In this document: positions 3,909-8,834 of the stretch, piece after piece
Layout: each line of letters starts with the position of its first letter
Position numbering within the stretch: the stretch's first letter is position 1
Source: Lysobacterales bacterium
GTDB taxonomy: Bacteria > Pseudomonadota > Gammaproteobacteria > Xanthomonadales > Marinicellaceae
Reading direction: 5' to 3'
DNA: 33,040 bases
Assembly: GCA_027067055.1 (NCBI GenBank)
Contig: JAMOMK010000035.1
Coordinates: 1-33,040, forward strand
Made by a program: the position numbers and the translations under genes
Notes under the pieces: generated by a model
Database searches by the model: none
Seen by the model: the letters and a program-made list of their open reading frames with translations, nothing else
Told to the model about the DNA's origin: nothing

Positions 3909-6572
3909 ATGCTAAAGAAAACTTATTTTTTAATTGCATTCATGCTGATGTCAATTCACGCTTACTCTCAAGAAGGTGATGTGATTGAAAGCAAGAACGA
4001 AGAAATAGTAGCAATGAGTTTAGTGGCAACTCAAGATGTTGTGTTGGAGTTAAGGGGTAATTATGGGATTAAAGCCTCAGTTGAACTGACTAAAGCTTTA
4101 TGGCAAGTACTGCATTCATACAGTAACCAACAACAAGCCCAAATCATTTGGCAATCTGCTATAAGTAAGGCGACTACTCTTGATAACTCGTTATCCACCG
4201 TTGTGAACTCTTACTATAATGCAGGAGAAGTAATGATTACTTATGTTAATGGCATGAGTGAGAAAAAGTGGAATGAAAAGAGACGTTTTAATGTGGTTAA
4301 CAAAGAAAAATTAAATAATTTTTTAAAGATGAATGATGATTTAACTATTTATTTTAATTTGCTCCCTGTGTGGGATTTGTTATTGCAAAATGTTGATAAA
4401 CAGGAAAATATTGACTGGCAAACTGTCTTTCAAAAGAGTCTGAAAGTATTTGAACAAAAAGAGCTTGTTCAGGATTCTGGTGACAAGAAGTTCTTGCCAT
4501 TAGCAGAGTCAGAATCCCAAAGTAAGGAAGTTTTGAGTGAGGTGACAACAATTGTTGCTGAATTTAATGCTTGGACACAAAGTGACAATAGACTTCTTGA
4601 TTTGTCTATTTTAATGCAAAAGGTAGAGCTGGTAAAAGATAAAGGTCTAAGTCATGCCTTGATTCGTTTTGTTTTAGCAAAGGATAGTGAACAACTATTA
4701 TCCTCAACAATGAGTTGGTTTGCACTTGCTCAGCAATTCATTGGTGAAGTTAATTCTTTTAGTGAAAGCGATTTAATCTTTTATCAGCAGTTTATTGAAG
4801 AAAATGACACATGGTTTTTAACCAAAGAGCAGGATTTAATCGCTGTTGATACAAGGTTGCCAGAACTTGTTGAGTCGAGCTTTCATCAATTAAAACCCAT
4901 TGTCAAAAACCCACATGGTATTGCAAGTGTTGAACTAACTTCAGTTTATGAACTTCTTTATCCTAATTTTGATAAATACATGGGGTCTCCATTTCGTAAA
5001 AAAATTAGAAGAGATTTAGAAGTTTGTTTAAATATCAGTGAAGAATTTGCTCCTTATCCGCAAGAACCCATTGATGAAAAACAATTTAAAGGGTGTGTTG
5101 ATGATATTTATAACTCAGCAGTTAATGAAGCAACATCACGTGAGCTATCAGGTACTTTAATAAAAGTTGAAAATAAACAAGCATTGGATCGAGCATTGGC
5201 TTTACCTGTTTGGCAGACAATAAATATTCTTTACGCTAACTTGGCATCAGTTGAGTGCCTCAAGACAACCAAGCAATTACCCAACCCATTAGAATGGACC
5301 ATGGCTGCTGAATCTATGTTGTGGTTTGCTGATAGGTGGCCTGCTTATATGGAAAAATTCCAACAAAGGAATAAAATTCAAGGTATTATTTCTAAAGGAG
5401 AGGTATTGATTGATGGTCTGGAGTGTACGGCAGGAAAAAATCGTGAATTATTAAATTCTGAATTTAATCGAGTGGTGCAATCATGGAAGCAAGTTGAAAC
5501 GGATATACAAAAAGTGATAGAAGAATTCAATGCGGCTTTCTTAAAAATAGGCAGTGACCTAGATTTAATAGATGATACGCAAAGTAAAAGTAATTACCGC
5601 GTGGAGGGGGCTAAGATTGCCGCATGTGATGTGCAAAATTCTTGTGGGGTTTTGGTAGAACTCGAGCCATCAAGAGCTTTGTATAGCCTTTTCCCTAGCC
5701 ATTTACTAGTGGCAGATCAATTAAAACAAGGCAATGTAAAGCTGTGCTATGACGATGTAGGCTGGGAAGATAGGCGTGCAGCACCGACGCATTTAGATAA
5801 TAATAATGTGGCGAATTATAGGGGTAAATTTAGTTTTTCATTAAAAGGATTTTACAATGAGCAATTAGTGTTCTCTCGCAAAATTACAGACAAACAAGAA
5901 TACAATTATATCTTTGCGGCTAATACAGAGGAGGTCTTGAATACCTACTGCCCATTATCGATAGTCGGTGACAAAATTTCTACAAAACTAGAAAGAGGTA
6001 CTTTTGGGCTGGTTCCCAATAGGTTGACTTTCTTGACGGCTTCGCGAGCTAATGAGACTGATATTTTGGTTGGTAACTGGGCATCAGGAGAAGAGTGGGA
6101 AAACGCTATACTTAGTGACGATGTTGAAGTGGTGTCGGAAGATAATTTAGAAGAATTGCAAACGAATATTTTGACAGCTTATCAAAAAAAGGCTAAACAG
6201 CTACAAGATATAATCTATAAAAGTATATTGAAAACGCAACCAAATGCATCCGATGTGCAAAAGGGTTTAGCGATAAGTTTTGCCACTATGCAACGGCATG
6301 AGAAATTATTGTTCTCATACAATTATATTTTGCAAATGGATAGATTAATGCAAGATGATGATTTGCATGGACTTTTCTTTGGAAGTAATAAAATGGTTGA
6401 TGCCTCTTCTATAAAGAATCACTTCAATAATCAAATGAATATTAATACGTTGCAAAGTGAAGTTGAACACAATTTAAAATCAAACCAAGAAAAATGGAAT
6501 GCTTTGTCTAACCAAATGTCCAACTCTCATATTCTTTCTCTGCTTTACCGACTGGATTCAATTTATCCATAG
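3909..6572 (+). CDS. Exported protein of unknown function, 887 aa
   Basis: I do not recognise the family. A signal peptide is clear: KK at 3-4, a hydrophobic run to about 17, and likely cleavage after AYS at 20. There is no lipobox. Residues 21-370 look largely helical and contain no cysteine. From 373 on there are eight cysteines (373, 396, 450, 506, 573, 579, 613, 681). Residues about 570-730 look beta-rich and form the most distinctive stretch, with CDVQNSCG, LCYDDVGWEDRR and GKFSFSLKGFY. The last 130 residues are again helical and rich in Asn and Gln. It has no membrane segment beyond the signal, so it is periplasmic or secreted. It is 66 bases upstream of dsbD on the same strand, which fits a disulfide-containing protein. 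The ATG at 3909 has no clear ribosome site. Confidence 0.6.
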   Translation: MLKKTYFLIAFMLMSIHAYSQEGDVIESKNEEIVAMSLVATQDVVLELRGNYGIKASVELTKALWQVLHSYSNQQQAQIIWQSAISKATTLDNSLSTVVNSYYNAGEVMITYVNGMSEKKWNEKRRFNVVNKEKLNNFLKMNDDLTIYFNLLPVWDLLLQNVDKQENIDWQTVFQKSLKVFEQKELVQDSGDKKFLPLAESESQSKEVLSEVTTIVAEFNAWTQSDNRLLDLSILMQKVELVKDKGLSHALIRFVLAKDSEQLLSSTMSWFALAQQFIGEVNSFSESDLIFYQQFIEENDTWFLTKEQDLIAVDTRLPELVESSFHQLKPIVKNPHGIASVELTSVYELLYPNFDKYMGSPFRKKIRRDLEVCLNISEEFAPYPQEPIDEKQFKGCVDDIYNSAVNEATSRELSGTLIKVENKQALDRALALPVWQTINILYANLASVECLKTTKQLPNPLEWTMAAESMLWFADRWPAYMEKFQQRNKIQGIISKGEVLIDGLECTAGKNRELLNSEFNRVVQSWKQVETDIQKVIEEFNAAFLKIGSDLDLIDDTQSKSNYRVEGAKIAACDVQNSCGVLVELEPSRALYSLFPSHLLVADQLKQGNVKLCYDDVGWEDRRAAPTHLDNNNVANYRGKFSFSLKGFYNEQLVFSRKITDKQEYNYIFAANTEEVLNTYCPLSIVGDKISTKLERGTFGLVPNRLTFLTASRANETDILVGNWASGEEWENAILSDDVEVVSEDNLEELQTNILTAYQKKAKQLQDIIYKSILKTQPNASDVQKGLAISFATMQRHEKLLFSYNYILQMDRLMQDDDLHGLFFGSNKMVDASSIKNHFNNQMNINTLQSEVEHNLKSNQEKWNALSNQMSNSHILSLLYRLDSIYP

Positions 6573-6638: not shown

Positions 6639-8834
6639 ATGAATACAATTAAACTTATTACTCTTTTATTATTTATCAGCTTTACTCAATTTAGTCTTGC
6701 TCAAGATGAGGAGCTGCTTGATGTTGATGATGCTTTTGCACCAAGAATTTTGAAAATTGATGCTGATAGCATTGCTTTGCGATTTGATATTGCCCCCAAA
6801 TATTATTTATACAAACATGCTTTTAAGTTCCCCAACGAAAATCAGAATGTGGTTTTTGGAGAAGCTCAAATACCAAATGGGCACAAAAAAGAGGATGAGT
6901 TTTTTGGTGAAGTTGAAACGTACCACGATAAGATTGATATTGTTGTTCCATATACCAATAAGGATGTGAAACGCACAACAAAGTTTAAGTTTAAATACCA
7001 AGGTTGTGCGGAGGCGGGGGTCTGTTATCCACCTCAGACTAAAGAAGTTGAAATAAAATTACCCATTCAACAAATTGCAACACTACCGACTAACTCTTTA
7101 GACTCTCCAGCTGGTAATGGTTTAGGGCTTAATTTGGCTAGTTCAGGTTGGAATGGTCAAAGTGATTCGGTGTTGCCAGAGTCAGAAGCTTTTACTTTTG
7201 AAACGATTGCATTAGATGCCAATAATTTATCAACGCGTTTTACTATGGGTGATAATATTTACTTATACAAAGACAAGCTTAAATTGAAATCTTTAACTAA
7301 GGGAATTGATATTGGTGAGCTTAAGTTTCCAAAAGGTAAAATCAAACAAGACCCGCACTTTGGAGAGGTAGAGGTGTTTTTTGGACAAATAGAAGTAGCT
7401 GTTTTGGTTAAACGTCAAGTCGGCTCTCCCAATCAACTACAGTTACAAGCCGAATTTCAAGGCTGTGTTGATGAAGGTATTTGTTATCCACCTTCACGCA
7501 GGCTTATAACTGTTGACTTGCCAGATAATACAATCACTGCAAACTCAGTTGATAATAGTGACTCTCAAAAACTTTCTGAACAAGCTCAGATTCAAATAGA
7601 TTTAGAAAAAAATTCGTGGTGGAAAACAATTCTCAAGTTTTTTGGTTTTGGGTTGTTGTTGGCATTAACGCCATGTATTTTTCCCATGATTCCAATTTTG
7701 TCAGGTTTGATAATGGGGCAGGGAGAAATTACTCGAAGCCGCTCTTTTATGTTGTCATTGGTTTATGTGCTGGCTATGGCATTGGCGTATACGACTGCAG
7801 GAGTCATTGCTGGATTGTTGGGAGCTAATATACAAGCGGCTTTACAAGTGGACTGGGTTATTATTTCTTTCAGTTTGGTTTTTGTGGCTTTGGCAATGAG
7901 TATGTTTGGTTTTTATGATTTGCAGTTGCCAGCGTCGTGGCAATCGAAATTATCTAATGTCAGCAATAACCAAAAATCAGGGTCATACATTGGTGTTGGA
8001 ATAATGGGCTTTTTATCTGCCATTATTGTTGGTCCTTGTGTAGCCCCACCACTAGCTGGAGCCGTATTGTATATTTCTAACACAGGAGATCCAATTGTCG
8101 GTGGCTTTGCTTTGTTTGCTATGTCAATGGGAATGGGCGTGCCACTGTTGTTAATAGGAGCCTCTGCAGGAAAATGGATGCCACAATCAGGCGGGTGGAT
8201 GAATGTGGTTAAATCCTTCTTTGGTATTGCCTTAATCGCTATGGCAATTTGGTTTTTATCCCGCATTATATCGCCTAAAGCAACTATGATTCTTTTTGGG
8301 GTGTTAGCACTGTTGTCATCTGTATTTTGGTATCGTTATGCGGTTAAAAATATTAAAAAAGGCAGTAAGTTAATTTGGTTGTTTTTAATCTTTAAAGTCA
8401 CTTTAATAGCAGTTGGGGCAGCACAAATATACGGTGCAGTCAAGGGGCATACTAATTTTATGCAACCGTTAACACAGAAGCAGGTATTTAAGTTTCAAAA
8501 AGTTACAAGCTTAGAAGAGCTGCAGGAAGTCATTGCTCAATCAGATAAGACTGTGTTGTTGGATTTTTATGCTGACTGGTGTGTTGAATGTGTGCACATG
8601 GAGAATACGACATACAGTGATGGTGCGGTGAAAGATCTATTGTCTAGTTTCACTGTGCTAAAAGCAGATGTCACTGAACAAAATGAGTCAGACAAAGCGT
8701 TAATGAAGAAATTTAAAATTGTCGGACCTCCAGCCACCTTGTTTTTTGACAAGCAAGGTCAGTTGATACAACAATCAAGCTTTTTTGGTTATAAAAATGC
8801 AAAAGAATTTATTGAACATTTAAGGAACCTCTGA
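6639..8834 (+). CDS. dsbD: Thiol:disulfide interchange protein DsbD with two alpha domains
   Basis: DsbD passes electrons from cytoplasmic thioredoxin across the inner membrane to periplasmic partners such as DsbC and cytochrome c maturation proteins. In order: signal peptide 1-21 (SLA/Q); a first alpha domain about 22-142 with C123 and C129 in QGCAEAGVCYPP; a second alpha domain about 183-295 with C276 and C282 in QGCVDEGICYPP; a membrane domain about 330-605 with C346 (LTPCIFP) and C467 (GPCVAPP); and a thioredoxin domain about 615-731 with C648-V-E-C651. E. coli DsbD (565 residues) has only one alpha domain, which explains the 731-residue length. There is no obvious ribosome site. It follows the unknown 887-residue exported protein and precedes a secreted protease. 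Confidence 0.93.
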   Translation: MNTIKLITLLLFISFTQFSLAQDEELLDVDDAFAPRILKIDADSIALRFDIAPKYYLYKHAFKFPNENQNVVFGEAQIPNGHKKEDEFFGEVETYHDKIDIVVPYTNKDVKRTTKFKFKYQGCAEAGVCYPPQTKEVEIKLPIQQIATLPTNSLDSPAGNGLGLNLASSGWNGQSDSVLPESEAFTFETIALDANNLSTRFTMGDNIYLYKDKLKLKSLTKGIDIGELKFPKGKIKQDPHFGEVEVFFGQIEVAVLVKRQVGSPNQLQLQAEFQGCVDEGICYPPSRRLITVDLPDNTITANSVDNSDSQKLSEQAQIQIDLEKNSWWKTILKFFGFGLLLALTPCIFPMIPILSGLIMGQGEITRSRSFMLSLVYVLAMALAYTTAGVIAGLLGANIQAALQVDWVIISFSLVFVALAMSMFGFYDLQLPASWQSKLSNVSNNQKSGSYIGVGIMGFLSAIIVGPCVAPPLAGAVLYISNTGDPIVGGFALFAMSMGMGVPLLLIGASAGKWMPQSGGWMNVVKSFFGIALIAMAIWFLSRIISPKATMILFGVLALLSSVFWYRYAVKNIKKGSKLIWLFLIFKVTLIAVGAAQIYGAVKGHTNFMQPLTQKQVFKFQKVTSLEELQEVIAQSDKTVLLDFYADWCVECVHMENTTYSDGAVKDLLSSFTVLKADVTEQNESDKALMKKFKIVGPPATLFFDKQGQLIQQSSFFGYKNAKEFIEHLRNL

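Follow-up and report, generated by a model that had tools for sequence, protein, structure and literature searches.

In Escherichia coli, electrons travel through DsbD from thioredoxin to a transmembrane (TM) cysteine pair, then to the gamma domain, the alpha domain and finally the partner protein. The known partners of the alpha domain (nDsbD) all have the thioredoxin (Trx) fold, as seen in the complexes 1vrs, 1jzd and 1z5y. The K-12 protein (NP_418559.1) has an alpha–beta–gamma architecture with cysteine pairs in alpha, TM and gamma, and its genome record contains one DsbD_N domain, confirming the single alpha ascribed to it by the initial annotation; in this textbook arrangement, one alpha must serve all periplasmic partners. 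In the numbering used here, which follows mature E. coli DsbD by an offset of 19 signal residues, the alpha pair is C103/C109. According to the available text of PMC7347389, Phe70 is packed against C109 in reduced E. coli nDsbD, and the cap loop opens for cDsbD. The same text reports that position 70 is F or Y in 53% of 134 sequences and that a further 36.4% have bulky residues there that would shield the cysteines; Glu is among these shielding residues, while His is absent from the list. It also describes a Phe cap for nDsbD of Neisseria meningitidis. A second reductant exporter, ScsB, is named beside DsbD in the available text of PMC5403849. Our literature search, which included the available text of both papers, found no description of a tandem-alpha DsbD, and the main text of PMC7347389 contains no words that begin with "duplicat" or "tandem".

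The window, a stretch of 33,040 nucleotides, carries a dsbD gene for a 731-amino acid protein with two alpha domains (6639..8834; all features of this gene lie on the plus strand), recognized as an open reading frame and by the whole-protein model NF001419 of NCBIfam (677.9 bits against a cut-off of 330). Its hydrophobic N-terminus ends in SLA and was read by eye as a likely signal peptide (residues 1–21, 6639..6701). The Pfam family DsbD_N (PF11412) matches two stretches, with 199 bits in total, and each is far above the cut-off of 25 when placed separately. Alpha1 (6708..7055, 111.6 bits) contains Cys123 and Cys129, and alpha2 (7164..7517, 95.7 bits) contains Cys276 and Cys282; the two modules end in the QGC-x5-C-YPP motif, as QGCAEAGVCYPP and QGCVDEGICYPP. 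The two similar modules with intact cysteine pairs described in the initial annotation are thus real. Between our own HMM matches lies a linker of 39 residues that is predicted to be flexible from its low pLDDT (7056..7172), and its coordinates overlap those of alpha2, as Pfam places the alpha2 start slightly before that of our HMM. The transmembrane beta domain (DsbD_TM, 7617..8270, PF02683, 322.5 bits) follows, with Cys346 and Cys467 in TPC and GPC contexts as read from the sequence. The gamma domain (8487..8828), with the motif WCVEC (Cys648, Cys651), has a thioredoxin fold according to its Thioredoxin family matches and its alignment to E. coli cDsbD structures, and it aligns to the DsbD C-terminal domain structure 4ip1_A with an E-value of 7.3e-22. 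The eight cysteines of the protein therefore form four pairs by position, and the sequence hallmarks of the DsbD family are present, namely DsbD_N with the C103/C109 pair, DsbD_TM with two cysteines and gamma with CxxC.

The two alpha domains of the window are 30% identical to each other, while their identities to E. coli nDsbD are 32% for alpha1 and 23% for alpha2. When each was searched alone against the PDB by sequence, Neisseria nDsbD (6dnv, 6dps) came first and E. coli nDsbD next, and the sole other row belonged to alpha1, at E 0.58. Unlike the pair in the window, the Neisseria domain was solved as a single N-terminal domain. Chance or misassembly as the source of the double alpha is excluded, because the Pfam scores are high and most relatives have the same layout. 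Directly upstream of dsbD is a gene for an 887-amino acid protein with a signal-like N-terminus (3909..6572, plus strand), which has no Pfam match at E 0.01.

We modeled the alpha1–linker–alpha2 stretch with AlphaFold2, using an alignment of 73 rows. The model contains two beta domains with a mean pLDDT of 89.9 and a pTM of 0.53, and the linker is of low confidence (pLDDT under 50 at model residues 142–155). With its low pTM beside the high pLDDT, the model assigns the two alpha domains no fixed placement relative to each other. In a Foldseek search, nDsbD chains occupied ranks 1–18, and VIA-align gave Z-scores of 12.7–16.8 for ten nDsbD entries. The alpha1 model aligns to nDsbD from the DsbC complex (1jzd_C, Z 16.8), from the cDsbD complex (1vrs_C, Z 16.8) and from 1z5y (Z 16.4), in which the partner is presumably CcmG. 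All ten alignments fall within model residues 1–126, which correspond to alpha1, and the family membership of alpha2 is therefore based on its sequence. The next related structural row after the nDsbD chains is the N-terminal periplasmic domain of ScsB from Proteus mirabilis (6c29_A), which spans both model domains with a Z-score of 10.2 but superposes poorly (rmsd 12.3 over 200 residues); a sequence search with the tandem profile did not find 6c29 at E 0.1.

The double form is not peculiar to the window. We took its order as Lysobacterales (Xanthomonadales); the nearest named loci come from metagenome-assembled genomes (MAGs) titled Alcanivoracaceae or Lysobacterales, and then from Marinicella. 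PF11412 is present in 61/61 near relatives, the source genome included, and by eye mostly as two neighboring matches in one frame. A tandem profile built from 26 proteins, which tells tandem from single forms, detected a tandem DsbD in 192 of 200 order genomes (again including the source genome), a count that rests on E-values of 1.3e-57 or better, G432 being included at 1.3e-57. The eight order genomes below the tandem score are G011, G027, G028, G045, G293, G295, G304 and G417; in G045 the match lies where a contig starts, and in G027 the matches fall on two contigs. Among 232 sampled genomes of the class, at least 83 have a tandem, 127 show only a single-length score and 22 have no match at 1e-10. 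The 83 consist of 82 at E 2e-57 or better, of which G165 is cut at a contig end, plus G191, whose match spans both domains at 5.8e-43; this number is a lower bound because the matches in some of the 127 "singles" lie in short or truncated frames. Two alphas, where the textbook protein has one, are therefore carried by at least a third of the class genomes sampled. Named tandem carriers include Marinicella, Thioalkalivibrio, Thiomicrorhabdus, Sulfurivirga and Woeseiaceae, and single-domain loci were found in Nitrincola, Neptuniibacter, Marinobacterium and Methylophaga; two further loci, L027 and L050, appear single only due to cut contigs. Outside the class, 75 genomes sampled from the rest of the phylum gave no tandem DsbD in a profile search at E 1e-20, and one single-length match (G464).

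Since the double alpha is found throughout the order and is common in the class, it is an old lineage trait and not a one-off, and a claim of novelty by distribution was rejected. The initial annotation had foreseen this outcome if the double form were common in the order and its two domains equivalent. The first part holds, whereas the domains are not equivalent by sequence, as they differ at the tip of the cap. The new part is this cap asymmetry, which is nearly fixed in the order of the window.

To describe the asymmetry, we compared 85 distinct order sequences drawn from families f1–f12, which share ancestry, so that the counts are not independent events. They comprise 50 order loci without names (largely best-scoring), 15 named loci and 20 loci added for under-sampled families. 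The named loci were placed in the order by title and tree position, some of them being MAGs whose titles go no deeper than class or phylum. Loci that were cut, copies with identical domains and the loci L037 and L063 were excluded. Both cysteine pairs are complete in all 83 class tandems and in all 85 order sequences, and Y42, D68, Q101, G102, C103 and C109 are invariant in both alphas of the latter. This invariance makes it barely credible that one alpha is a spacer or regulatory remnant without redox function, although the N-terminal region of ScsB, in which two Ig-like parts share a single catalytic pair, can also be aligned over the two model domains. It is likewise very improbable that an old duplication without selected function was kept by inertia in an otherwise ordinary DsbD. 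The wide and old distribution and the lack of a clear partner correlation (see below) would suit such a neutral origin, but the retention of cysteines and motif in two domains that are only 30% identical in the window argues for selection on both.

The alignment to E. coli nDsbD called for by the initial annotation revealed where the two domains part. The alpha1 cap loop of the window, D86-E-F-F-G90 (6894..6908), is of the Phe type, matching the D-E-F-aromatic-G pattern of E. coli (D68-E-F-Y-G72). In contrast to the single Phe-capped alpha of E. coli, the window has a second alpha whose loop, D238-P-H-F-G242 (7350..7364), carries His at the position of Phe70. This difference is consistent across the order: among the 85 sequences, the tip at position 70 of alpha1 is F in 60, L in 11, Y in 8, A in 4 and N in 2, whereas that of alpha2 is H in 53, E in 27, Y in 3, N in 1 and S in 1. 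Grouped, F, Y or L occupies the alpha1 tip in 79/85, and H or E the alpha2 tip in 80/85. Position 99 also differs, with K/R in alpha1 of 64/85 and in alpha2 of 2/85, and D/E in alpha2 of 34/85. Of the two excluded loci, L037 has the caps DEFFG and DPHFG, while L063, from a MAG titled Lysobacteraceae, has DEFFG in both alphas and its alpha2 groups beside its own alpha1; this exception may be a re-duplication or a mistitled MAG. Several Marinicella loci, such as L041, L042, L044 and L053, have A, Y or N at the alpha1 tip and Glu at the alpha2 tip.

Outside the order, the cap asymmetry is a weak tendency: among 80 tandems, the tip is hydrophobic in alpha1 only in 17, in alpha2 only in 5, in both in 53 and in neither in 5. 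The tandem DsbDs of Thioalkalivibrio and Thiomicrorhabdus loci share the layout and the two intact pairs of the window protein, but, unlike in the order of the window, both of their alphas have a hydrophobic tip (F in both alphas of Thioalkalivibrio; L, V or I in Thiomicrorhabdus). Position 70 varies in single-alpha DsbD too. The published figures for cap conservation in nDsbD could mix two kinds of domain.

The trees bear on the age of the duplication. In an order-focused quick tree of 190 domains (order and named loci), the alpha1/alpha2 labels need 6 changes, and the order alpha2s form one branch with an SH-aLRT of 95 (45 alpha2 rows and the cut L050). The alpha1s are less tidy, with those of family f12 (L017, L032) on the alpha2 side. 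The D1/D2/S labels of this tree need 15 changes against a shuffled mean of 72.8, although near-copies cluster anyway. From this tree, the duplication probably arose before the order itself. A class-wide tree of 190 domains, of low support and few columns, needs 22 changes of the D1/D2 labels and places the window alpha1 (win_D1) beside singles on a long branch. With modest support, 57/82 alpha1s group together in that tree, and 57/82 alpha2s group with 21/26 singles and 8 alpha1s. Singles also scored better with the class alpha2 profile than with the alpha1 profile in 26/32 cases, hand-picked from listed rows and named loci. The membrane-proximal alpha2 thus seems to correspond to the classical single domain and alpha1 to be the copy that was added, as a tendency rather than a proof; the one order single that was read, G011, points the other way, with 101.1 bits for the order alpha1 profile against 82.7 for alpha2. 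A single ancient duplication for the whole class is unsupported, given the 22 label changes, the placement of f12 and the close alpha pairs within some tandems: the two alphas of L214 (G218) are 93% identical, which is a recent duplication or conversion, and together with L218 (64%) they show later re-duplication or conversion in some lineages.

Such close pairs, like the same cap occurring twice in L063, would be expected if the two alphas were redundant copies doing the same job, the second raising the local concentration of output domains or the chance of capture by gamma. The retention of all catalytic residues in both alphas, and the frequent sharing of a cap outside the order (F at both tips in 26/83 class tandems), also agree with redundancy. 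However, the consistent difference at the cap tip in the order, the contrast in K/R at position 99 and the largely separate lineages of alpha1 and alpha2 in the order-focused tree speak against it, and we consider redundancy possible but somewhat unlikely.

We instead favor, tentatively, a reading in which one gamma would supply two competent output arms that act in parallel, the second being tuned differently. The DsbD of the window would then be a transmembrane exporter of thiol reductant in which both N-terminal output domains are redox-competent. By analogy with E. coli, electrons would pass from cytoplasmic thioredoxin to the TM cysteine pair and the gamma thioredoxin domain, and this one gamma could reduce either of the two tethered alphas. 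Each alpha may hand electrons to partners of the Trx fold in the periplasm, for example DsbC or CcmG. The alphas, on flexible tethers, would most likely work in parallel: the alpha1–alpha2 linker is 25–74 residues long across the loci compared, which would let each alpha reach gamma and partners alone and so favors parallel use.

The initial annotation had also suggested a relay in series. In a route from gamma to alpha2, then to alpha1 and the partners, the chain order alpha1–alpha2–TM–gamma would be suitable, a hydrophobic cap tip is retained by the outer alpha1 and mostly missing from alpha2, and position 99 tends to opposite charges in the two domains. However, this relay has no direct support and requires thiol exchange between two Ig-like alphas, for which we know of no precedent, the known nDsbD partners being of the Trx fold; moreover, the long linker, predicted to be flexible, does not suggest a docked pair. 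Docking through the charges at position 99 was rejected as too weak, since K/R and D/E occur together in only 23/85 order sequences. The relay thus seems quite improbable.

In the favored parallel arrangement, alpha1 keeps the hydrophobic cap, and alpha2, with its ionizable His or Glu tip in most of the order, would probably be tuned otherwise, in charge, thiol reactivity or gating, for another partner or exchange rate. An ionizable tip should retune the alpha2 thiols. Since Glu is counted as shielding in the available text of PMC7347389, a cap with Glu, and perhaps one with His, may protect the cysteines sufficiently. A more specific version is a two-channel DsbD in the order of the window, with alpha1 as the classical shielded donor and alpha2, whose tip is almost always His or Glu, as a second type of alpha that has its own redox potential or pH response and its own partner or relay role; we regard this version as unlikely. 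The cap difference in the sequences keeps alive the proposal of different partners or different roles for the two alphas, while demonstrating neither. The doubling, with the order alphas diverging at the residue presumed to gate the active site, sets up a natural experiment on how a single electron source is shared among partners and on whether the Phe cap is needed.

Gene content offered no clear rule for partner specialization when 83 tandem and 127 single genomes were compared. CcmG is present in 70/83 tandem and 101/127 single genomes (p 0.47), with no enrichment, and DsbC_N in 75/83 against 93/127 (p 0.0025), a modest difference that is uncorrected for kinship or genome size. Both cysteine pairs are kept in the tandems of 13 genomes without CcmG and 8 without DsbC_N (2 without both), and hence neither alpha is dedicated to either CcmG or DsbC. 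In the genome of the window there are two DsbC_N matches and a single CcmG match, so that its DsbD may supply more than one partner of the isomerase type. A ScsB paralog in this genome was considered and rejected, as the second PF11412 match is the tail of a DUF255 protein. That protein is a 785-amino acid ORF (L248:2424-4778, minus strand; G000:C88:14923-17277) that begins with DUF255/Thioredox_DsbH and has at its C-terminus a DsbD_N match of 30.9 bits containing a CSDKIC pair; it is a DsbD_N domain joined to a different protein of the thioredoxin type. Weak DsbD_N matches also occur in long ORFs of relatives.
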